Shown in pieces: positions 32,501 to 61,080 of a stretch of 64,000 nt of DNA. Source of the stretch: Polytrichum commune. Its lineage: Eukaryota; Streptophyta; Polytrichopsida; Polytrichales; Polytrichaceae. The stretch lies in contig OX485808.1 of the NCBI GenBank assembly GCA_950295325.1, forward strand, positions 3,226,501 through 3,290,500, written 5' to 3'. The notes under the pieces were generated by a model. The model worked only from the letters and a program-made list of their open reading frames with translations, was not told the origin of the DNA and made no database searches. The stretch's first letter is position 1, and each line of letters opens with the position of its first letter. Position numbers and translations under genes: made by a program.

Positions 32501-35500
32501 TTTCGCCAGTGACAAATCTCAGCACAATATTTGACATTATTTCTAGTGTTAACTAGGATTGAAGTAAATATGGACAAAAGGCTCATCCAAAATCAACAAT
32601 GCACCTAAGACTTTTTTTTTGCCCAGTTGAGACGTACTTATTGTGAAACAATGTATTTGGAGAAAGAAACTAGAGAAATTATGATGACGTTCCCAATCAT
32701 ACATACTTTGAGTAGGAATCTGACCAAACATTCTCTCTGGATGCGTACTTTTTCACAAATAACACAACGTGCATGCAACTGAAACGTGCTATAACAGGAG
32801 ATGCAATTCACATCTAGAATTTGTTGCTGCCATTTCTATCATAAAATCCACCGAGAAAACTGAACGTATTAAAATGATCAACACTTGTGAATAAGTCTAG
32901 ATTTACTTAAAACATACATAGTTTGCTACACTTGGTAGTCATTTAAAGGGAGAGGGTACATTATATGGTCGCAACGTAATAAACATTTGCAAGCCCGGAC
33001 GCAAGCGACCTTCTTCAACGAGATGCGCAGTTTGTGATGTGTACCTGGGGGGATGCACTCCTTGCCGGAGGGCGGAGATGAGTGATCGTGGATTTTGTTG
33101 ACTTGCGGGAGTCCGGGAGGTCGATGCACCCACAAGAACAGGTATGGGCTGGCTTCAAGCGCAAGAGCCAGCTCCCTCACCTGCTCTTCGGAGACGATGG
33201 TAGTCAGGCTCCCGAACGATATGTAGAGCACCGAGTGTGCCTCTTGAGCGTCCAGCCACCTCTCCGCCTCCGACTTGTCGTTCTCGTCGCCGCCGCGGTC
33301 GTCGTCGGCTACTAGCGCACGGGCCTCGCCTCCCCACGCACAGTCGGGGACCATGGGGCCGATCGGAACCAACCTCGGCACCTGCAACACATCCATGGCA
33401 TCGTGAAACACAAGCGTAGGCCATGCCGCCAATTCATCGACGACGGTTCCGGAATCAGAATACCGTAGTACCATAGCTGGTTCGTTCAAAAATAATTCTA
33501 AAAATAAAAAATGTAAAAATTATGAAATTATGAAGACAGAAAAACGAAAATAAAATAAAATAATTTTTGCAATCTTTTGGTGTTTCTAAGCCATTTAAGG
33601 TCATTTTTACTGATTTTTTTGCTAAAAATGAAAATTGAGAAATTCAGTTTTTTGAGAGGCGAACCTTATTTTTTCAAAATAAATAAATATTCGTTCGCCA
33701 GGGGACGAACCAACTATTGTGTTACGGTAATCGAGACACTTTTGCAATGGAGCTCGCTAAAATGACCCCTTGTTGCCTGACTTTAGCTACGTCTAAAAGT
33801 TCTTTCTAAATTAAAATCACAGTCGGGCGGACCATTGATCGGGTCGATCGGAACCAACCTCGGCACCTGCGAGACATCCACGGCATCGTGAAACAGAAGC
33901 GTGGGCCACACCACCAATTCATCAACAACAGTTCCGGAATTGAAATAAACGGGACACTATGCAATGGGACTCGCTAAAATGCCTCTTTCCTGCCTGACTT
34001 TAGCTTATGCCCCCTCCCCGCCTGATTTTAGCTAAGCCTAAAGGTTCGTTCTAAAACCACAGTCGGGGACCATGGGGCGGATTGGAACCAACCTCAGCAC
34101 CTGCGACACTTTTGCAATGGAACTTGCTAAAATGCCCCCTTCCTGCTTGACTTTAGCTTAGCCTAAAAGTTCATTCTAAAACCACAGTCGGGGGACCATC
34201 AGGCCAATTGGAACCAACCTCGGCACCTGCGACACATCCATGGCATCGTGAAACAAACGCGCGGGCCATGCACGCCGCCAATTCATCGACGACAGCTCCG
34301 GAATCAGAATATACGAGACACTATGCAATGGAGCTCGCTAAATGACCCCTTTCTGCCTGACGTTAGCTTAGTCTAAAAGTTCGTTCTAAAACCACAGTCG
34401 GGGACACTCGGAACCAACCTCGGCACCTGCGACACATCCATGGCATCGTGAAACAAAAGCGCGGGCCATGCACGCCGCCAATTCGTCGACGACAGTTCTG
34501 GAATCAGAATAAACGAGACACTATGCAATGGAGCTTGCTAAAATGACCCCTTCCCGCATGACGTTAGCTTAGCCTAAAAGTTCGTTCTAAAACCACAGTT
34601 GGGGGACCATCGGGCCGATCGGAACCAACCTCGGCACCTGTGACACATCCATGGCATTGTGAAACAAAAGCGTGGGCCATGCTGCCAATTCATTGACAAC
34701 AATCCCGGAATCAAAATAAACAAGACACTATGCAATGGAACTCGCTAAAATGCCCCCTTCCCATCTGACTTTAGCTTAGCCTAAAAGTTCGTTCTAAAAC
34801 CACAGTCTGGGGACCATCGGAACAGTGCCGCCAATTCAGAAACCAGAATAAACAAGACACTATCCAATGGAACTCGCTAAAATGTCTCCTTCCTGCCTGA
34901 CTTTAGCTTAGCCTGAAAGTTCGTTCCAAAATCATGGCCTCCACAACATGATCGATGTTATCTAGTCCTGAGCTTAGTTTGGCGAAGGACGTGGCATGGT
35001 TCAAAAGTGGAGGTTTTAATCCTCGAGCACTGACCCTCCCATTGGTACGTAGAGATGAGGCAAGAATGTAGGACCTTTAAAAGTGTTGCCTCCAACCCTT
35101 GTGATTCGTTGCTTTTAGTCCTAGCTATGAGGGCGCAAGGAGCTACATCAACAAGAAGCGATGGTCAGATAGATGGGTGGTAAGGCACTTGGGGATGGGA
35201 CAAAAACTATCCAACATGTCATTGCTTGGTAGCTAAAACGATGAAACATGTGCGAGAGCTACTTAACTAAAACCTACTCGAAAATCTCCACAACAAGTTC
35301 TTGTAGGTGCATCAGGATAGCTGGGGTGCCTCCACCATAATTGACAGAGCTTTACCATTGATCTACTTTGCCTTACCACTCAACTACTTTACCATCGCTT
35401 TTTGCTAATGAAACTCCTCATGCCCTCATATCTAAAACCAAGAGCAACCAATCACAGGAGTCAAAGATGACACTTTTGGAAGTCCCACATTCTTGCCTCA

Positions 35501-38500
35501 TCTCTAAATACCAATGAGAGGGTCAGTGCTTGAGGTTTAAAACCTCCACTTTTAAACCATGCGACGTTCTGTGCCAACTAGGCTCAGAACTAGATAGCGT
35601 CGATGGTGCGGAGACCATGTTTTCAAAACGAACTTTTAGGCTAAAACACCATATTCGAAATTTTGGGAGATTTCCAGTCTCCCAATTTGATGACAGTTTA
35701 GGTGGAGTCGACCTAAAATGTACCCAGTGGGTACATTTTAGGTCGACTCCACCTAAACTGTATTTTCCCAAAATCATGGAATTTTCCCAAAATTTCGAAT
35801 ATGGTGTTCTAAGTAGGGTTCTACTAAAGTCATGTGCGAAGGGGGCATAAACCCTCAAAAGAGATGGAAACACCTGCATTAAGGTAGGGTCAATAAACTC
35901 CATGATAAAACTGATTTGTTTCTCGTTCCTTTCACGTGGACGAGGCTTGCACAATAAAAATCCCATATTTGAATAGATCAGGTAATAAATTTGCACGGGT
36001 ATATTGCATCATGTAATATCCAGAAGAAAGTATACGACGCATGTGAGCCAGCTGTAGATGGGTTAAGAGATTATTTTTTTCCCCGACCTTGAAATTAGCG
36101 GCAAACATGCCGCTCCTCATGGACTCAAGTGCCACACTCTCGAGCTCCTCAAAAGTGTTGATGAAAATTGTGTCGGATTCCGTGAGCCGCTTGATGTTCT
36201 TGAAGTGGAAGTCGAAAAGCTTGTGGTCAGGCTCCTTGAATGAATCCCAAATGTCCTCCGCATAAAGTGTTATAGAGCCAGGTACAAGGATGAAGTTTTG
36301 TCGGTCGTCACCGCGAAATGGAAGCTTGCCTTCCTCAATAAGAACTGATGCCTGCAACATCAAAATCCACTCCACTTCCTGAGTCGTAATTCCCTGTTTT
36401 ATTAACATTCTTATCTTGTGTGCAAGGATTGTTTCTTAAATTGACCCAACAATGGCGTGTAGTAGTAACAAATTACAACAAAGCTTGGAGCAGTGTCCGG
36501 GGAGAGTTTTGGTCATTATCGGTCAACATCCCAATGTTTTAAATGTCCAACCAACTACATGTTGTGATCTTTTCGGTTTTTCTTTATCAATGTGAAGAAT
36601 ATTCCATAGATTCCTCTAAATGATGGGTAATGTTTCAGAATTCTTGAACTTCAACTGGTTCATCTGTAAGTACAACGAATATTGAATTTAGTGCCACTCA
36701 CTATTTGGAGTTACACAATGCTATATCTTTTCACTATTAAAAAAATTGTTTTACCCAGTAGAGATGTTAATGCTCGATAATGTCCAAACAACCAATTTGG
36801 CCTTTGTTGGCAAAACATGAGATATATAGTGAATAACTATAGCATTGCATAATTCCAAATAGTATGTGATACTAACTACAATAATTAGTGCAGTGGTCAG
36901 TTTTCCCCCTTCATTTGCATGGAGGCCAGGCACCGGAAATGCAGCTCAAATGACTAGGACGAGTGCGTTGATTCCAATGACATAATTGACATGTACATAT
37001 CTAGGTGACGTGATATGATGACAAAGGATTATAAAGTGCAATTTAGGAAGAATAGCTTGCCATTTAAGTGATGATATGTATGACGATGAAATTGGTGATT
37101 ATCTGAAGTCTAAACTATGCAGGTGTTGATTGGTCATTTTTCATAATTGGACATCTATATTTGGTTGGTAACATGGAATTCGTGAAATGTCATATGGCAC
37201 GCAAAAATGCCACAAGTGCCGTTTTCACAAATACAAGGAGGGCCGGCTTGAATTAGTCTTTGGAGATAGCTTTTGCCAACTACATCTGGATGTATTTACA
37301 GAATGCTAATAGCATGTGCAAGTGATAAAGAGGAAAGAAGTCTTCTATATTATGAATGTAATGCTCTTCAATATTACTTCAAACACTCTTCATAGCAATC
37401 AAAACATAACATTTATGATATTAAAAGGCTTCTTCTGTACTCTATGAACTTGTACCATAGGTGCCCATATAAAATTAGTTTCAAAATGCAAATTTTCTCA
37501 AAGTTGAAGTGCACTCCACAAGACTAGAAACTAAGTCGGCCTTGAAAAAAAAACGTCACATGTGACATTTTCACAAATACTATGTTTTGTGTGTGGTGAG
37601 GTCAAGATTAATGAAAAAACTATCATTAAGGCATATGTTTAACAATAGATTGGACTACGTTTCCAAATCATATTAACTATTCCACATTAAATGATTGACA
37701 TAAATTGGAGCAAGCAATACCTACCCGTGCTAAACATGTTTAAGAAGCTCACTTCACTTCAAATCAAACCTAAATGTCTTTGGACCAAGTTGACGTCACC
37801 TTATTGCCCACTATATATAATGTCACAAAAGTGGATATCCTCTCTCATCAGAAGCTTTGAATAATCACTTTGTGACATTATAGTGTGCAGTATGGTGACA
37901 TTAACTCAGTCAGGACAGATTAGTAATTAAGTAAACTGTCATACATGGGAAGAATTGAGCATTGTAAATATTGCAGGGAGAGAGTTGCCACCCTAGGAGA
38001 GTTAGAGACAGTTAGATCTACCCTTGAAGAATTGAAAATCATGACAATGCGTTGTGACTGAGTTAATGTCACCTAACTGCACACTATAATTTCACAAAGT
38101 GGAAATTCTCTCTCAACGGAAGGTTCAATTAATACAAGACATTCGGATTTGCAGTTGAAGAGTCGATGGCGCTCATGCTAATGTGTTTTGACAGAGTTAA
38201 TGTCACCTTACTGCACGTTATATATATAGAAAGTCACAAAGTGGAAATACTCTCTCTCAGCAGAAGCTTCGAATGTTCTCCTTGTGACATTACAGTGCAC
38301 AGTAAGGTGACTCTAATCAACTCGGTTAAAACGCAATAGTAACAGGATCACTTCAATTCAATCAAATTGAGGAGCTGAATTAGAAATGCAGGCATGGGGA
38401 AAAGTTGAGATCAATGAGCAATATTGTGGACAGTAGTGCACACTTACCATGAGTGCGGAAGCAAGAGTGGAGGCAGGCATAGTGAACAAAGTGTGCTTGG

Positions 38501-39020
38501 GGATCCCAAACTTGTCAGCTGCATCTTGCACCCACCCCACAAACATGTCTGCAACAATGCAACAGGGAGTGGGAGACAACCGCTCTATGAACTCCTCCAG
38601 CTTCACCTGCATCTCCTTGTCACTCAGTTTCTGTATCCAATCCTCCATCGTCTCCAGCTTCACCGCAGGAACCTCACCCTCATCTTTCTCCAACAAGGGC
38701 TGGAACCGAATTCTCTGACCGGTCGCATTAGTATCCTTACCCTGCACGTCATGACCCCCATGCCGCAGATTCTCCAAGACATGGCCAGTGCTCGCACAAG
38801 TCACCTTGTACCCAGATGCAACCAGCTTGTCAGCAAATTTGGTGCAAGGCAGAATGTGGCCCGGTGCAGGAATAGAAACGAGCAGAATGTGAGGCACCAT
38901 AGCTGCAGAAGGTAATTTGTTGCCATTGGTGAGTGCCGGAGATGGAGGTGGAGTTTCCATAGCTGCAGGAAGTAAAATGTTGTTGCCATTGGTGAGAGCA
39001 GGGCATGAAGGTGGAGACAT
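29562..39020 (-). CDS. UDP-glycosyltransferase (GT1 family), five exons
   Basis: Transfers a sugar from a UDP-sugar to a small acceptor, probably a specialised metabolite or hormone, in the cytosol. Exons: 39020-38448, 36351-36088, 33381-33045, 31778-31589, 29856-29562. All junctions are GT-AG and the phases (0, 0, 1, 2) agree, giving 552 residues with no internal stop. Visible: N-terminal strand ending in APGH (candidate catalytic His55), VADMF (candidate Asp158), WLD at 321-323, SFGS at 334-337, and an exactly 44-residue PSPG box at 407-450 from WAPQ to ADQ with HCGWNS inside. The final Gln and the Trp at box position 22 are usual for UDP-glucose users. The first 40 residues are an extension holding two copies of a PALTNGN repeat, so Met41 (codon at 38900-38898) is an alternative start. 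At 552 residues it is longer than the usual 450-500, through both termini. The acceptor cannot be told. Donors of introns 2 and 4 are weak (GTCGGG, GTTTCA). Confidence 0.93.
30857..31561 (-). mobile_element. pogo-like non-autonomous element, 705 bp (copy R2), in UGT intron 4
   Basis: Left end CAGTCTAAGCTCATAAATAC and right end, read inward, CTGTTCTCCCTCTTTAGTAT, with TA on both sides (30855-30856, 31562-31563). The sequence is the reverse of copy R1. It ends only 27 bases from the splice donor of UGT exon 4 (31589), so it sits at the very start of intron 4 in the transcript. Confidence 0.75.
31779..33044 (-). other. UGT intron 3
   Basis: Bounded by donor CCAG|GTACAC and acceptor GTGCAG|GATTTG. 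The split codon restores [11 protein letters not shown]. It carries no recognisable transposon, unlike the other three introns. Confidence 0.85.
33790..34935 (-). repeat. Tandem array of six partial copies of the UGT intron 2 / exon 3 boundary
   Basis: Six units of about 125-240 bases (starting near 33790, 34030, 34153, 34373, 34574, 34782). Each joins a spacer (CTAAAAGTTCGTTCTAAAAC) to a copy of the last part of UGT intron 2 and the first 40-50 bases of exon 3, recognisable by GGAACCAACCTCGGCACCTG. Five units keep a CAG|GTGCCGAG 3' splice acceptor equal to the true one at 33382; unit 6 has lost it by deletion and unit 2 lacks part of the upstream segment. The real boundary, with the same spacer above it, acts as unit 0. 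Units differ from each other by scattered substitutions, so the amplification is not very recent. The array sits wholly in intron 2. Confidence 0.88.
34908..35644. repeat. Fold-back element with about 280-bp inverted arms
   Basis: Left arm about 34908-35188 and right arm about 35369-35644 are inverted copies with an estimated 75-85% match by eye. Shared blocks include AAAAGTGGAGGTTTTAA, TAGAGATGAGGCAAGAATG and GGTAAGGCA. The outer tip of each arm is the AGCCTAAAAGTTCGTT motif that also starts each unit of the adjacent tandem array. The loop is about 180 bases. It resembles a long-TIR (Mutator-like or Foldback) derivative; no target duplication or coding sequence was found. Confidence 0.75.
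35645..35808. repeat. Palindromic element with a perfect 33-base stem
   Basis: Outer arms read AACACCATATTCGAAATTTT and its inverse. Inside, 35694-35726 and 35728-35760 are exact inverse copies over 33 bases around one central base (35727), each containing TAGGTGGAGTCGACCTAAAA. Between outer and inner arms the match is weaker. RNA from either strand would fold into a long hairpin. The open frames seen here on both strands are mirror images made by the palindrome. Confidence 0.92.
36491..36916 (-). mobile_element. hAT-like MITE, copy H4, interrupted by a nested MITE (UGT intron 1)
   Basis: Begins CAGTGTCCGGGGAGAG. It follows the family to CTGGTTCATCTGTAAGTA near 36672, is interrupted, and resumes near 36888 with a decayed end reading CAGTTTTCCCCC. 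Flanks GCTTGGAG (36483-36490) and GCATGGAG (36917-36924) agree at seven of eight bases, supporting one original insertion. Confidence 0.75.
36679..36885. mobile_element. MITE nested inside H4 (about 207 bp)
   Basis: Long inverted ends: the left side carries TTTAGTGCCACTCACTATTT and the right side, inward, GTTAGTATCACATACTATTT, both followed by a GCAATGCTATA-like motif. Limits are uncertain by a few bases and no clear target duplication was found. The ends resemble the element at 25837-25986. Confidence 0.6.
37787..37909. mobile_element. Short hairpin MITE, copy 1 (UGT intron 1)
   Basis: The whole segment is a near inverted repeat: AGTTGACGTCACCTTATTGC at the left and, inward from the right, GAGTTAATGTCACCATACTG, both leading to ACTATA...GTCACAAA. 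The centre contains CTCTCTCATCAGAAGCTT. Closely related to the copies at 38060 and 38194. Confidence 0.7.
38060..38125. mobile_element. Half copy of the hairpin MITE (UGT intron 1)
   Basis: Only the left arm (GAGTTAATGTCACCTAACTG) and the start of the centre (CTCTCTCAACGGAAGG) are present; the right arm is missing. Confidence 0.6.
38194..38323. mobile_element. Short hairpin MITE, copy 2 (UGT intron 1)
   Basis: Left GAGTTAATGTCACCTTACTG and right, inward, GAGTTGATTAGAGTCACCTT form the stem. The centre CTCTCAGCAGAAGCTTCGAA matches copy 1. It lies 125 bases inside intron 1 from the exon 1 donor (38448). Confidence 0.7.
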
Positions 39021-39864
39021 TGCTGAGTATGAGTACTGGTTCGAGTCTAAGTCGGTACCAAGGGATGAGTATCACCACCGGGCTCTTGGAACCGACATAT
39101 GCTCGTTCAAGAGTGATCACTTGGAAGAAAGAAAAATGAGGTGAGTGAAATTATGATGATGTTGTAAGTAGTTTGGTGGTGCTGCAGGCTAGTAATGAGT
39201 TAACATGATGTTGTCGGATTGTCTTTTCCATGAATTGTCCATGAGGTGAGTAGAGGTCGGCTATGGGTGGTGCACGCGAAGCTTCACCCAAACTGACAGA
39301 CAGGAGGCCGTCGAGCTGCTCAAACATGCTCATCAGCATTGACAGGCGTTTCAGAGAGTGTTTTTAACCTTTAATTTGAAGAGCCTGCTGTTGCCGAGTA
39401 CACACTGACACCCCAGAAAAAGGTTCCTGGGTGACAGAGTGGGTATAAGCTTAGAGACTGATAATGATAAAGGGAGGGAGCTAAGCTAGCTGCAGCAATC
39501 AAGTACCCCATTCTCGCACAAATGTCTTGTGGCTGGAAGCTAAGCAAGAGAGAGAGAGACAGGAATATTCGGATATGTTAGACATCAATGTACTTCATGG
39601 CCGGCTTGTTCACCTCTCAATGTTTTGGAGGCTCAGACATTGCGATGGGTCTGTGGGGTGGAATGTATACAAAACGATATCTAACTTCCCTTTGATTTTT
39701 GGGTGATCCATGCGGGATCGGGTTTTGTGCAAGCCATTTTGTTAATTTGTACAATGTTGCGCAACATCTATAATTAATCACCACAGAAACAAATAGGAAA
39801 ACACTATGTGACAACTATATATACTACTAAGCTTACCCATGTCCTGGGATGACAAGTGAGATAT

Positions 39865-54879: not shown

Positions 54880-57800
54880 TCACGTGTGCTTATATCTGCC
54901 AATGAGCTTCTGTGTGCAATCTTCAACAGCTTCCATGTCCATGACTATCGTGTCATCGCTGTTGTAATCAACTGTCTCCTGTGAGTCCACATCCGACATC
55001 ACCTCTGTTGCATCATCATCAAAATCCTCTTCCTCACTTCCACTGCAAAACATTACAATACCTGAGCAGGAGTTTTACAAATCCCCTTTATTCTATATTC
55101 AGCTACTAGAAAATTAGAATTAGACCTATCATGAATGATTGCAGATTCTTTGGGTTTGTCTGCAAATAAACATCAAAAACAATGATCATACAAGAGAAGA
55201 ACATTTTTTACCTATATGTTTTTGAAGTACTCTACATCCTCAGAAGATTCCCAATTATTGACTTCATATTCATGCTACTAAGGTAGAAGTCTTTAATTCA
55301 GATACTTTTCTCTCTGCACCCACTCCTTGTAGGATATGAAACATGCAATTAGTGTGAGATGATTAGCAATTTCGAATTGTGCCTATAGCCATTTGCCTTA
55401 TATTTTTTGGAGCTCATATGAATATCTTATTCATTATCAAAGTGAAGATTCTTGTGCTCATTAAGTGGTCATATAGGTGTTCAGATTATTGCTATGCTGG
55501 AATAAGGCACGTCTACCTTAGGATATAAAATAGAAATCTGAACAGACCTCCTTTTGGACTAAGACCCTGAAGGAAAGGACAACCCTTGTAATATACAGTA
55601 CATGTGTGACATGGAACAAACAATAATACAGCACCACATTAAGGTGGGGGAAAACCCCTGAATGGAGGTGATTGATGGTCTTACCCCTTTTTCTGCCGTG
55701 AGGCACCCACAGGGGCCTTTGAAGGAGTTATGAAGTGTTTCAGATTTTCCATGTAAATTCCTTTCAATCTTTCAGCTTCTCCAAGCAAACTGCTTCTCAT
55801 GGATTTTGCATATCCATCCTTGCCCTCCTCCATAGCTGATAGCTCTTTCACCGCCCTTGGAAGGAAACCCCAATTTTCAACAACACTCCTTATTCCCTAC
55901 AAGTATAACATCACTCTTTAATAAGCAAAGTGGCATTGTCATCCAAAGAAAACTGGACAAATACACTTTCCCCTCATTGAAATACCAGCATGCACCTGGA
56001 ATGTTCAACCCCTAATTACCTTCATTGCAGGCCAACGAGGGGTAGGGAGGACCACTCCAAAAACTCCACACCAATATGCCCCTTCCAATTGAATATATTT
56101 TGGTTCTTTATGGCTTGGATTTTGATCTAAAGACATTTGTGAAGTTCAGACAAAAACAGAGGAGACCTCTCATAAACCACCAATGGAACTAATTGGCAGA
56201 ACATCATACATTCAGTGAACAGTCATTTGCCTTCCAAGTACAAAGTTGTCTACACAAATCCCACGATATTGACTTGGCATGTAACCTGCAGATTTGATGC
56301 AAAGGTGGTGTTGTTGACCTAAGGAACTCACTTGATTTTCTTGCAGGTTTTTTATAGTATCTTCAAGGCAGAGTAGAATTCCCTGGGCAGCTGTAGATTT
56401 CAACTCCTTAGCTTCTGGCTGGAAAAACACAATTGACAATATTGAGTAGACTCCAGCAACAAGTAACCTGGTACAGGCATCTTAAATCTTTAGTACACAT
56501 TGTACCAGGCAGCTATCATGCTGCCCGGCAATAAAATGTCATGGTTGCATCCATATTTACATTTGTATCCAGAATATTGGAAGTAAAACAACTGCAAATT
56601 GGATGACATGATTTCAACCAACGGGGGGATGTTCCAAGTTTACATCCAATTCTTGGCAGTTCTCAGGCATTATTTTACTTTCCCACCATACTGGGCAGCA
56701 TGATGATTACCCACTTCACTATTGAATGAATCTCATATCGGCTAATAATTGAGCATTAGAGGAGTTGCATTCTGAGTTTAGGGTTCTGAGTTTAGTGAGT
56801 TCTGAATATAGTGAATTTTTCTCAATATAACCTAGAATACCTTTGCATCTTGTTGTTGCAGCCAATCCATTGTAGAAGTGAGATCATCATTTACCCACTG
56901 TCGAATCTCTGCCACGGATCCACAGCTCACCTTTTTCTGTATCGAAATCTCAACCTTGCCTGTAAGAAGTAAATATTTCAAGTTTCTGCCATCATAAGCA
57001 CAAGTGCAAAAAACTAACAAAGAGAAATGTGACAGAAATGTGACAAATTCAATTTTAAGAATTTACCTAAAACAGCATCCACTGCCTGTGATGAACTGCC
57101 TAGTGTTCTCCATGGCTTCGATCCCTTGTTCATAAGGAATCTGCATGGATTCAAAAAATGGGCATACATGAAGTACAAAAGATTAAAGAAATGAGAGGTA
57201 AAGTTGCAACACTTTTTCAACTTTGTCATATAATATTGCTCACTATTGGCTTGGCATACACTCAACTATGGACAGTCTGACAACATAACTCCATGCATGC
57301 CTGAAAAATATACATTTAAGACTACCTGTCTATATCTACAAGTTTTCGCTTCTTATAGCACTCGGGTATCCAATCCTGCAAACATCCCACCCCCCATTAA
57401 CAATGTTGATAATTTACAAGTTGATGAGGTATGCTAAACTAGGAATAAAAATCAAAAATACCCTCAGATATTCTCCACTACATTTAACTGTTGACATGAT
57501 GTTTTGCATAACATGATCTGAATTTTCTTAACAAGTAGCTCAAAAATTTATTGCATGTCCAGTTGGAGCCATCAAGATGTTAGCAACAGGTTTCAGTTAA
57601 AGCAAGAGTTAGAACCTTGGAAACAATAGTGCCGTCATCTCCTTTGACTTGTTTAAATTTTGGTGTATCCATGAATGCACAGACAAGAAGGGTGCAGTCA
57701 TCAGTCCAGTCAGGACGATACCGAGCTCCCATTTCCAAGGCCTCAGTTCTTAAATTTCCTCTCTCAGGATTTTGTATGCCTGAGATCGCAAAAACAACAC

Positions 57801-60593
57801 CTTCCTACACCATTTCGAAAATAACATGTACCTGGTGAGTGTCCATGCCATTGATTGCTTACATAGCATATATCATGTTTAATAGTACTTGGAAATAAAA
57901 AATATTCATGAACATCACTATGCTGATAGTAACCTGTACTTATCAGAATTTTATACAACTACAACCAATCTGACCAAGATTCATAAAAAGCGGGAAAAAG
58001 AAGAAGCCATGAACTCGCTAGTCTTCTGAAAGCCTTGAACTAAATAGTACACAAATGAATATCACTAGATTGCTTCTTGCACATTTCTGAGAATCCTACC
58101 AGAATTTTTGTGAAGTCTTGCTCTGGCACTTTCTTTGGGGCAAGACTTGTATCCGTCGGATCTCCAACTTTCTTACTCCCAAGTGCTGCTCTCCTTGAAC
58201 CTGCAGATGATTGCCCTCTTTCTTTTGATAAAGAAACCCCAGTTTTCTGATTATCATCATCGTTTCCACCTTGAGCTGCATCTTGTTGATTATCAGTCTT
58301 TCGCCTCGTCCCTCCAGTTTCAGGCTGGGCACCAGCATCCGAGTGTTTTTCATTTGACAGGGTGCTACATTTCCCTACACCTGCTTGGTCGACCTTCAGT
58401 TTCTTGGGCTCCTTATTTTTTGTTACATCTTTCACACCTACACTCAGGTGGTTTGTGGTAGACTTGCTGCTTTTCTGGTACTCAAAATTGTCTTTATCTG
58501 TTGATGACTGACTTATTTGAGCAAGAGACCTTTTGTTATTTACCTTCTTTTCATCCTCCAAATCTTGAGTGTCCAAGACTTTTTCAGGCTCCTCTTTATC
58601 TGTTGTTTTCAGATTCGTGCTATCCTTGCGTGGATCTCGGTTAAGCTTACTCAGTTCCAAATCCAACCCAAAATCCTCATAACTATCGCGTTTCACAGCA
58701 TTTGGGTCTACACTTCCCTTCAACTTTTTGGGGGATTTCCCTTTCAGAGGCTCCTCAGGCTCACTTGGCGTTGCCCACGATGGAAGTTTCCTTTTCATAA
58801 CAGTAGTAGTGGGTTTGCCCTGGTCATTTTTCCCATTTTGATCTTTTTTTAGTAGCTTCTTGTTAGCTACAGTAGGCTCGCAAGGAGTGAAATTAATGCA
58901 TGCCAAACCTATGCAAGCACGATGTTCGAGAGTGCCAAAAGGTTGCCGACAATTCACCCTTATCCTTCTCCACCTGAAAAATTAAGCACATGCCCGTCAA
59001 ATTTAGGGGGTCAATCTAACCTCTTCATTGCTTATTTGATTGATCACAAAACTTTTTGAGAGTTATCTTTGTAACCACATCAACAGTAGACTTTGCTTCC
59101 AGTTGGCAAAAACAAAAAGGTAGAAGCAGACATCACAACTTTCACCCAATTTTGAAAAATCTCAACAAAATTAGTCCAACACCACATCCTTGATAAGGTT
59201 GTGATGATGGTACCTCATACTTATACATGAGTCTGAACTTGCTACAAGTCTTACTTGCAATATGGGAACACCATAAGAATAACAGAAGCCACTTTAAGCC
59301 CTACTGGAAAATGGTTTTGATTTTCTTTAGCTTTAGCTTTAAAATCTTGTGGTCAAAACTAGTCTCAATGTCCTTCACAATTTGACCAATGTAATGTACG
59401 GTTTTATCATGTGGATTAAGAATTTTACTTGTGTTGGGCGGCAACTGGCGAGAGCTTGCGAGTATCAATGTCATACACAAACGCTCGGTTGCGGTTGCTC
59501 TTGCTCATTAAATCCTTCACTGACATGACCTGCATCACATGTTTCCACAGTTGCTACGTTGTATTATATGTATGAATACATAAAACTACACCCAGTGGGG
59601 TATATTGCAATTATCTTCTAAACTATGTGATAATTTTGATTGACAATCTGCTACCTAGTAGCAGAATGTGGCACATATTAGAAAATAAGAAAATCACAAC
59701 CATAACATGTTAATGAGAAATTTATTATGTTATTTCAACATTTTATTGTTTCTACATGATAATTTTACCTCAGGAAATTTGTGATGTGTTTATTGCGATC
59801 ATCCATAATCTAACTTGTTATTGCTCGACGACACATAACCTCCTTACAGGGTTTAGGGTTTAGGGTTATGGATTTGGGGTTAGGGTTTAGGAGGAATACC
59901 ACAAGCAGGACAAAAAGTTCATAATTGGCATATTTTCATGACTGATCCATGATACATACCGATCATTGGGTAATTTCAAAATAGCACTCTATGCAGTGTT
60001 TGGAACTATGACATCAAACTAACCACCTCTTTTAACCTAGTCAAGGATTCAAAAGCTTTGCTGAGGACAAATGTGATCAAACTCAAACTGTTACAGATCG
60101 ATATGCATAAATGTACTACTCAAGAACCCAAAAAGAAGATCAATGATGAAAATTGAGGTAAAGAATGAGCAGGAGTAAATTTCGCTCAGCTTACTTCAGC
60201 AGGAAACAAACTCATGTGGACTAAGCACACTAAAAAGAGGGGTAGTTAAAATTGCTGAATTTCTCCTCCAACAACCTGCTGAAGGTGCAGACTAAATCAT
60301 AACTAACCCACCTGTTGTGCAGACAAGAGAAGCTCATAATCCTCAATTTCCTCCCCCTCAGCGTCCTCCCGCAGCCCATGAATCTCCACAAGTGCCGATC
60401 CCGCATTCACCATCTCCACTTTGTGGAATGCCGTGGGCGGCCGTGGTTGCAGTATTAACCATGCGTCATCAGTTGGGGATTCTGTCTGCCATAGCCTGTA
60501 CCTGTCTGGGTTTAACACATTTGTGGCTGGGTGCACCTCATCCTCCGAGGATCCATCTTTTACTACCCATTCAACTTCTTCTTCCTCCCCCAT
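54880..60593 (-). CDS. XRCC1: XRCC1 DNA-repair scaffold with N-terminal domain and one BRCT domain, ten exons
   Basis: Nuclear scaffold of base-excision and single-strand-break repair. Exons: 60593-60312, 59529-59429, 58973-58100, 57804-57616, 57375-57326, 57140-57067, 56959-56841, 56418-56332, 55896-55685, 55042-54880. All introns are GT-AG and phases agree, giving 716 residues. Residues about 1-156 match the XRCC1 N-terminal domain: the segment from VHPATN through YRLWQ, the HKVEMVNAGSA strand, EDYELLL, then WRRIRVNC. Residues about 160-415 form a charged Lys/Asp/Ser-rich linker with basic KKLK clusters. BRCT covers about 416-506 (SGIQNPERG, GARYRPDW, DWIPECY). From 525 on, a helical region and an acidic tail resemble the C-terminal half of plant XRCC1; no second BRCT is present. 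Animal XRCC1 uses its N-terminal domain to bind DNA polymerase beta and its second BRCT to bind ligase III; plants lack both partners. Start chosen as the only Met directly before the domain. Confidence 0.95.
55310..55520 (+). repeat. Dispersed repeat family X, shortened copy 4 (XRCC1 intron 9)
   Basis: Begins CTTGTAGGATATGAAACATG and runs to AGGTGTTCAGATTATTGC, but lacks the middle part with the TAGTCCGATCTC motif. It lies in XRCC1 intron 9 (55043-55684). Confidence 0.58.
59848..59891 (+). repeat. Interstitial telomere-like repeats in XRCC1 intron 1
   Basis: Adjacent GGGTTTAGGGTTTAGGG, a diverged stretch, then GGGGTTAGGGTTTAGG, the Arabidopsis-type TTTAGGG telomere unit. It lies in intron 1 (59530-60311). 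Short telobox motifs are common in promoters and first introns of plant housekeeping genes, but a run of this length also fits a repaired break. A single worn copy is also at 4785-4800. Confidence 0.75.
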
Positions 60594-60594
60594 T

Positions 60595-61080
60595 CAACCC
60601 GAACACCTCACCAACCCTCACAGAGTCCTTGTTTCTTTTTCAAAATTGCTGAAAAATGTTGAGAGTTCAAGAGTAAATCCTTCCCCCATTCATCAACCCT
60701 CAAAACTTCCTTCACTGACTTGATTCCCAAGTCTTCACTTAAAACTCTTCTCTCTCTCTCTCTCTCCTCCCCTCTTACTCATACATAGATACATAACCTC
60801 CCACATTCACCCAAACACCTCACCGAACCTCACAATGTCCTTGTTTCAAAAATTTGCTACAGAACCTTAAGAATTCAGGAGTTGGGTAGCAGAGACATGC
60901 TTCTCTTATTTACGAAGAGTTTGAAGACCCATCTCTCCTCAAACTCCTCCCCCCACATTCACCCAAAACCTCACCGAACCTCACAATGCCCTTGCTTCTT
61001 CTAAACATTCCTGCAAAATGTCAATTGTTCAGGAGTTGGGTCACAGAAAAATGCTCCTCTTAAATTATTCACCAAGAATC
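60595..61080. repeat. Tandem repeats in the XRCC1 upstream region
   Basis: Three related copies carry ACCTCACCRAACCTCACA near 60605, 60815 and 60966, followed by CCTTGTTTC/CCTTGCTTC, a TTGCTRMARAA-like motif and TTCAGGAGTTGGGT or its worn form. A (CT)n tract is at 60747-60767. The first copy begins within a few bases of the XRCC1 start codon, so the repeats make up its 5' untranslated region or core promoter. Which bases drive transcription cannot be seen. Confidence 0.6.

Follow-up and report, generated by a model that had tools for sequence, protein, structure and literature searches.

We describe a gene for XRCC1, the central scaffold of single-strand-break repair, in a 64,000-nucleotide stretch of the genome of the moss Polytrichum commune (assembly GCA_950295325.1, contig OX485808.1, positions 3,226,501 to 3,290,500 of the forward strand; hereafter the window). 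The encoded protein consists of an N-terminal domain, a linker and one BRCT region. The N-terminal domain, represented in Pfam by XRCC1_N, is known mainly as the holder of DNA polymerase beta (Pol beta). No Pol beta gene was found in the moss genome by an exon-by-exon search, which a fragmented gene or one with very small exons could escape. We propose that the domain is an ancestral docking module, kept in a complete moss XRCC1 for a job without Pol beta, and give this reading a probability of roughly 0.58.

The searched genome is a 407.8-Mb assembly of 64 contigs, in which the window corresponds to C6:3226501-3290500; the contigs labelled C1, C2, C3, C5, C6 and C7 are chromosome-sized (42-78 Mb). 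Proteins were compared with Pfam and the PDB, and the Pfam scan of the spliced XRCC1 protein was reported at E values up to 1. The cited papers were found by word searches.

Structure of the XRCC1 gene

The XRCC1 gene occupies the minus strand from 60593 to 54880. A model rebuilt from splice signals joins ten exons into a protein of 716 residues. All nine introns are of the GT-AG type, the exon phases are consistent, and an in-frame TGA lies immediately upstream of the ATG. The rebuilt model confirms the coordinates, the ten exons and the consistent phases given by an earlier reading of the DNA letters (the sequence-only reading). The features of the gene, in window coordinates and all on the minus strand, are as follows.

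60312..60593, minus: exon 1, residues 1-94, start of the N-terminal domain (splice model; XRCC1_N match)
59429..59529, minus: exon 2 (splice model)
58100..58973, minus: exon 3, final strands of the N-terminal domain (WRRIRVNC), linker and start of the BRCT (splice model, Pfam)
57616..57804, minus: exon 4, BRCT (splice model, Pfam)
57326..57375, minus: exon 5 (splice model)
57067..57140, minus: exon 6 (splice model)
56841..56959, minus: exon 7 (splice model)
56332..56418, minus: exon 8 (splice model)
55685..55896, minus: exon 9 (splice model)
54880..55042, minus: exon 10 and stop codon (splice model)
58895..60563 including introns, minus: XRCC1_N domain, residues 11-154, exons 1-3 (Pfam, 89.8 bits; ends converted by hand)
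57355..58111, minus: BRCT domain, residues 416-489, exons 3-5 (Pfam; ends converted by hand)
58775..58792, minus: RKLPSW, residues 189-194, candidate Ku-binding core (pattern R-X-X-P-X-W)
58838..60979, minus: segment copied in whole or in part in three transposons, comprising the upstream region, exons 1-3 to residue 173, and introns

The C-terminal part of XRCC1 matches this locus alone in the genome search (5 of 5 matches), and the locus is the sole complete XRCC1 gene found in the genome.

Two kinds of repeat accompany the gene. Intron 1 holds a short degenerate plant-telomere-like repeat of TTTAGGG units (59850-59892), and imperfect direct repeats lie upstream of the start codon (60584-60674 and 60949-61062). 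The latter came to light in the comparison with the transposon copies described below, which they match out of register at 75-85%.

Conservation of the N-terminal domain and its pocket

The sequence-only reading had placed an N-terminal XRCC1 domain at about residues 1-156 over exons 1-3 and had suggested a profile search against the XRCC1 N-terminal family. In that search XRCC1_N matches residues 11-154 with an E value of 2.2e-25 and 89.8 bits against a cut-off of 21, covering profile positions 9-146 of 148. The domain also matches the XRCC1 N-terminal domain chains 3k77, 1xna and 3k75 in the PDB (E 1.3e-15 to 1.8e-15); the PDB table gives molecule names only, and we take these structures to be human. 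The moss domain is identical to the solved animal domain at 48 of 138 aligned positions (35%), compared with a mean of 8.2 and a maximum of 20 identities in 20,000 shuffles of the moss N-terminal residues. Because 35% identity over a whole domain is not expected without constraint, its persistence since the split from animals would be strong evidence for long-term constraint. The continued selection claimed earlier for the domain can accordingly be upheld on this long time scale, and not for recent times; present-day function does not follow from it.

In human XRCC1, a hydrophobic pocket around F67 and V86 takes up the V303 loop of Pol beta, whose substitutions L301R/V303R/V306R abolish binding to XRCC1 (PMC6614843). 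The XRCC1 substitution V86R likewise abolishes Pol beta binding (PMC12190888, PMC8405949). In our alignment the pocket residues of the moss protein are Leu68 for F67 and Leu88 for V86, hydrophobic but not identical, and Glu70 keeps human E69. A pocket that has stayed hydrophobic in this way may still receive the hydrophobic loop of a partner protein.

Human C12 and C20 are replaced in the same alignment by Gly14 and Pro22. These cysteines presumably form the redox disulfide pair of the human N-terminal domain; given that pair, the redox switch would be absent from moss XRCC1, because both of its residues are replaced.

BRCT and C-terminal region

The BRCT domain described by the sequence-only reading is recovered by Pfam at residues 416-489 (E 9.6e-9), and the related PTCB-BRCT model matches the same stretch (1.3e-6). 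The other two Pfam matches, BRCT_2, again over the BRCT stretch, and NPBW (E 0.35), are below their cut-offs. In the PDB this region fits human XRCC1 BRCT1 best (2d8m; E 4.6e-28, 101 bits), followed by Rad4 at 50 bits, and the moss BRCT and XRCC1 BRCT1 are identical at 50 of 96 positions. Poly(ADP-ribose) binding by human BRCT1 recruits XRCC1, through a pocket with predicted residues S328, R335 and K369 (PMC4538820). Equivalents of all three are present in the moss BRCT, as mapped by hand on the PDB alignment. In the proposed mechanism, BRCT1 with its retained poly(ADP-ribose) pocket would bring XRCC1 to PARP-marked breaks.

No second BRCT (BRCT2) was detected in residues 500-716 by the Pfam scan at E up to 1. 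The C-terminal region that the sequence-only reading took to be helical and typical of plant XRCC1 is covered by no Pfam family.

Polymerases of the X family and candidate partners

Genome searches with the palm, thumb, fingers and 8-kDa domains of X-family polymerases give one match each, and all four concur on a single locus, C5:815084-822192. The spliced gene carries HHH_8, fingers, palm and thumb above their Pfam cut-offs and an N-terminal BRCT slightly below its own (21.1 versus 21.3 bits). In the PDB its best Pol lambda match has an E value of 1.9e-58, while its best Pol beta match stops at 3.8e-38. These matches identify the C5 gene as DNA polymerase lambda (Pol lambda). The earlier statement that plants are without Pol beta is in keeping with these four domain searches, which found only Pol lambda in this genome. 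In Arabidopsis, Pol lambda fills gaps and acts as a dRP lyase (PMC10787897).

The animal ligase partner was also looked for by domain search of the genome. The zf-PARP domain has five matches at three loci, one of them above cut-off, and the DNA-ligase core has nine matches at four loci; no locus with both, the layout of DNA ligase III, was seen. This fits the lack of ligase III in plants stated in the excerpts of PMC6728418 and PMC10573277.

Following recruitment by BRCT1, the N-terminal domain would act as an extra docking site that holds an enzyme of base-excision or single-strand-break repair on the scaffold. Pol lambda is the leading candidate for the docked partner because it is the sole X-family polymerase found, and we name it tentatively, at less than even odds. 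LIG1, a DNA glycosylase or the 3'-phosphatase ZDP, taken together, are a somewhat less probable answer.

Several observations weigh against our proposal. Human R109 and Y136 are both Phe in the aligned moss domain. In the thumb of Pol lambda, the positions of Pol beta L301, V303 and V306 read H, N and K, by an ungapped hand count back from a shared S-E-x-x-x-F stretch for which we assume the Pol beta numbering; since these V303-loop positions look polar, a beta-like grip of XRCC1 on moss Pol lambda finds no support in the sequence. Of the exons of Pol lambda itself, the genome search brought to threshold just one piece of the palm (positions 24-56 of 113) and one of the thumb (34-63 of 63), and because so few did, a Pol beta gene with very small exons could be missed. 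Finally, retention of the domain is seen in this one plant genome, in a gene read from sequence alone.

The domain might instead need no protein partner and bind a nick or gap directly. Early NMR and biophysical work, as cited in PMC6395731 and PMC3546746, had the human domain binding damaged DNA, and for full-length human XRCC1 the KD is 54 and 75 nM on nicks and 110 nM on a one-base gap (PMC8405949). The isolated human domain, in contrast, is described as being without DNA binding, which maps to the linker and BRCT1 (PMC6395731), and we regard direct binding by the moss domain as unlikely. The sequence-only reading had suggested that the domain has either a different partner or a direct nick-binding role; both stand here as candidate roles, and whether the human domain on its own binds a nick or gap is itself disputed (PMC6395731).

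Met187 and a Ku-binding-like motif

A second alternative is that the N-terminal domain is vestigial, its exons being transcribed by inertia, and that the working protein starts at an internal methionine, Met187 in exon 3, like the short form of Arabidopsis. Met187 sits past the N-terminal domain, two residues ahead of the RKLPSW motif, and the Arabidopsis protein reportedly functions with no such domain (PMC10573277). Against such a start, the whole fold is kept with its 48 identities, there is no frame break, and the splice sites are canonical; unconstrained sequence should be unrecognisable at such divergence. We consider a vestigial domain decidedly improbable.

The motif itself, RKLPSW at residues 189-194, on the C-terminal side of the N-terminal domain, matches the APLF-like Ku-binding core, whose consensus is R-X-X-P-X-W; this pattern occurs in more than 600 proteins, and the authors call for validation (PMC4831024). 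A further fit to the pattern at residues 447-452 falls within the BRCT fold and is no candidate, and because of it the pattern alone is weak. Short plant XRCC1 proteins have a similar LPSW stretch near their start. A search of the genome for Ku domains matched nothing anywhere, a result that does not show absence. As a candidate, RKLPSW would tie the XRCC1 scaffold to Ku.

Transposon copies of the N-terminal segment

XRCC1_N has four matches in the genome, including the window (six candidates scored). The other three are copies of the 5' part of the XRCC1 gene.

L005, C2:55651000-55658400 (copy at C2:55.66M): upstream region and exons 1-3 as far as residue 173, introns 1 and 2 included, 98.6% identical over 2,143 bases
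L006, C3:41980600-41988600 (41.98M): upstream region and exon 1, plus 80 bases from intron 1, 97.7% identical over 748 bases
L007, C2:28491500-28499700 (28.50M): upstream region and exon 1, plus almost the whole of intron 1, 98.6% identical over 1,447 bases

We rejected a reading of these matches as XRCC1 paralogues, since the genome search gives the C-terminal half only once and the other three are DNA copies that contain intron sequence. Silent and amino-acid changes in their exons relative to the window number 3 and 4 in L005, 2 and 2 in L007, and 2 and 3 in L006, with shared changes counted in each, and at a divergence of about 1-2% in most parts and without an outgroup these counts say nothing on selection on the parent XRCC1.

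All three copies depart from the XRCC1 sequence at window position 60979 into a shared 188-base sequence. At least 40 genomic places carry this end sequence, counting the three XRCC1 copies (523 candidates, 40 of them scored), and its last base is reached in 38 of the 40 scored matches. Nine elements were examined, comprising the three XRCC1 copies and six of the other 37, and were extended in two of the three and four of the six cases. Both ends are seen in three of the nine, at C6:40.55M, C1:4.97M and, bearing XRCC1, C2:55.65M. The 3' end was not seen in the remaining six, three of which were not extended: L007 was extended and its 3' end found no match, and the L006 locus, where the 3' end was likewise not seen, was not extended.

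The three two-ended elements resemble rolling-circle transposons of the Helitron2/Helentron type. They begin with TC at a 5' end of TCGAGAAGAAGTC, and introns lie within the captured gene fragments; L007 begins with TT instead. Their 3' side shows GACTTCTTCTC, followed by palindromes and TTG; the palindromes were identified by eye, and one of them also appears when the 3' end is folded. An asymmetric terminal inverted repeat together with hairpins is a mark of Helitron2-type elements (PMC5148889). The corresponding repeat here is 11 bases long, with GAGAAGAAGTC at the 5' end and GACTTCTTCTC in a subterminal 3' position ahead of the palindromes, as in that type (PMC5148889). As a difference from those elements, no transposase was found here, and none was searched for. 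The L005 element measures 5,401 bp and has Helitron2-like ends.

Two other element types were rejected. Mutator-type capture was set aside since, within the initially chosen bounds of the three loci, the 188-base end has no long inverted counterpart; L005 does show an inverted match of 11 bases, which is the asymmetric repeat beside the 3' end. A canonical Helitron was set aside since the 3' end in three elements is not CTRR. Two family elements carry a fragment of NCKAP1, a subunit of the SCAR/WAVE complex: L012 (C6:33485800-33492000; PF09735, 1.3e-22) and, with a near-identical frame, L015 (C2:30463900-30470000). A frame with a phloem protein 2 (PP2) domain lies near the third XRCC1 copy, at L007 272-952 (C2:28491771-28492451; PF14299, 2.7e-15).

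L005 retains the four splice sites among exons 1-3. Spliced in the parental pattern, it has a frame of 206 codons, made of XRCC1 residues 1-173 with four changes, followed by 33 foreign residues. If L005 is transcribed, a free-standing N-terminal domain could be made from it. RNA reads across the junctions of exons 1, 2 and 3, a check proposed by the sequence-only reading, are not decisive, because L005 keeps the same exons to residue 173 together with their splice sites; reads over these junctions may be hard to assign to XRCC1 unless they extend past residue 173.

Since intron-containing pieces with exon 1 or exons 1-3 occur in transposons elsewhere, exons 1-2 at the XRCC1 locus might belong to a transposon or another gene beside a short plant XRCC1. 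At this locus, however, the 188-base transposon end does not follow, exon 3 by itself runs in a single open frame from the final strands of the N-terminal domain into the linker, the phases fit, and the remainder of the gene is present only here. Such an artefact is thereby largely refuted and left a very slim chance.

Other features of the window and genome

A UDP-glycosyltransferase exon lies in the window at 32929-33519 on the minus strand (PF00201, 8.4e-6), and the frames at 35935-36435 and 38361-39071 resemble it by eye, without a Pfam match. In the domain search of the genome, the chlorophyll-binding family has 58 matches. They include a tandem array of 14 LHCII genes with identical domain scores, about 95 kb long, at C5:1751760-1846160. 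These matches mark a plant genome, and one of the light-harvesting proteins finds its best PDB matches in chains 8htu and 7xqp (480 and 478 bits, the only rows at E up to 1e-133 apart from one anomalous row that has no passing stretch); both are Physcomitrium photosystem entries, which makes a moss likely.

Comparison with known systems and implications

Moss XRCC1 shares with human and animal XRCC1 the XRCC1_N domain, the linker and a BRCT1 with the S/R/K residues of the poly(ADP-ribose) pocket. It differs in having no BRCT2, in the G/P replacement of C12/C20, and in a genome without detected Pol beta and with no DNA ligase III layout seen. With Arabidopsis and rice, from which plant XRCC1 is described in the literature excerpts (PMC6728418, PMC10573277), it shares a single BRCT, the lack of BRCT2 and a plant setting with Pol lambda only (PMC10573277, PMC6728418, PMC10787897). 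In contrast to the moss protein with its domain and 716 residues, Arabidopsis XRCC1 is about half the human length and lacks both the N-terminal domain and BRCT2, according to a review excerpt (PMC10573277) that agrees with the sequence-only reading on the missing domain. Arabidopsis XRCC1, without the domain, stimulates ROS1, ZDP and ligation (PMC6728418, PMC10573277).

The word-searched titles and abstract openings hold no mention of the N-terminal domain in a moss, with subscription papers and protein databases outside the scope of that search, and the domain may well appear in automatically annotated genomes of other mosses. The moss gene encodes a known protein in an ancestral layout that lacks BRCT2, and the searches of its genome show no Pol beta.

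It is possible, though we would put it below even odds, that the N-terminal domain has an ancestral job independent of Pol beta that is still performed in mosses, and that Pol beta docking is an animal-side reuse of the pocket. If this is true, flowering plants lost the ancestral job or moved it to another protein, and a moss would be a setting in which to study the job without Pol beta. Gene targeting is routine in moss, and a plant that has the domain and no visible Pol beta makes a Pol-beta-free function of XRCC1 directly testable there.

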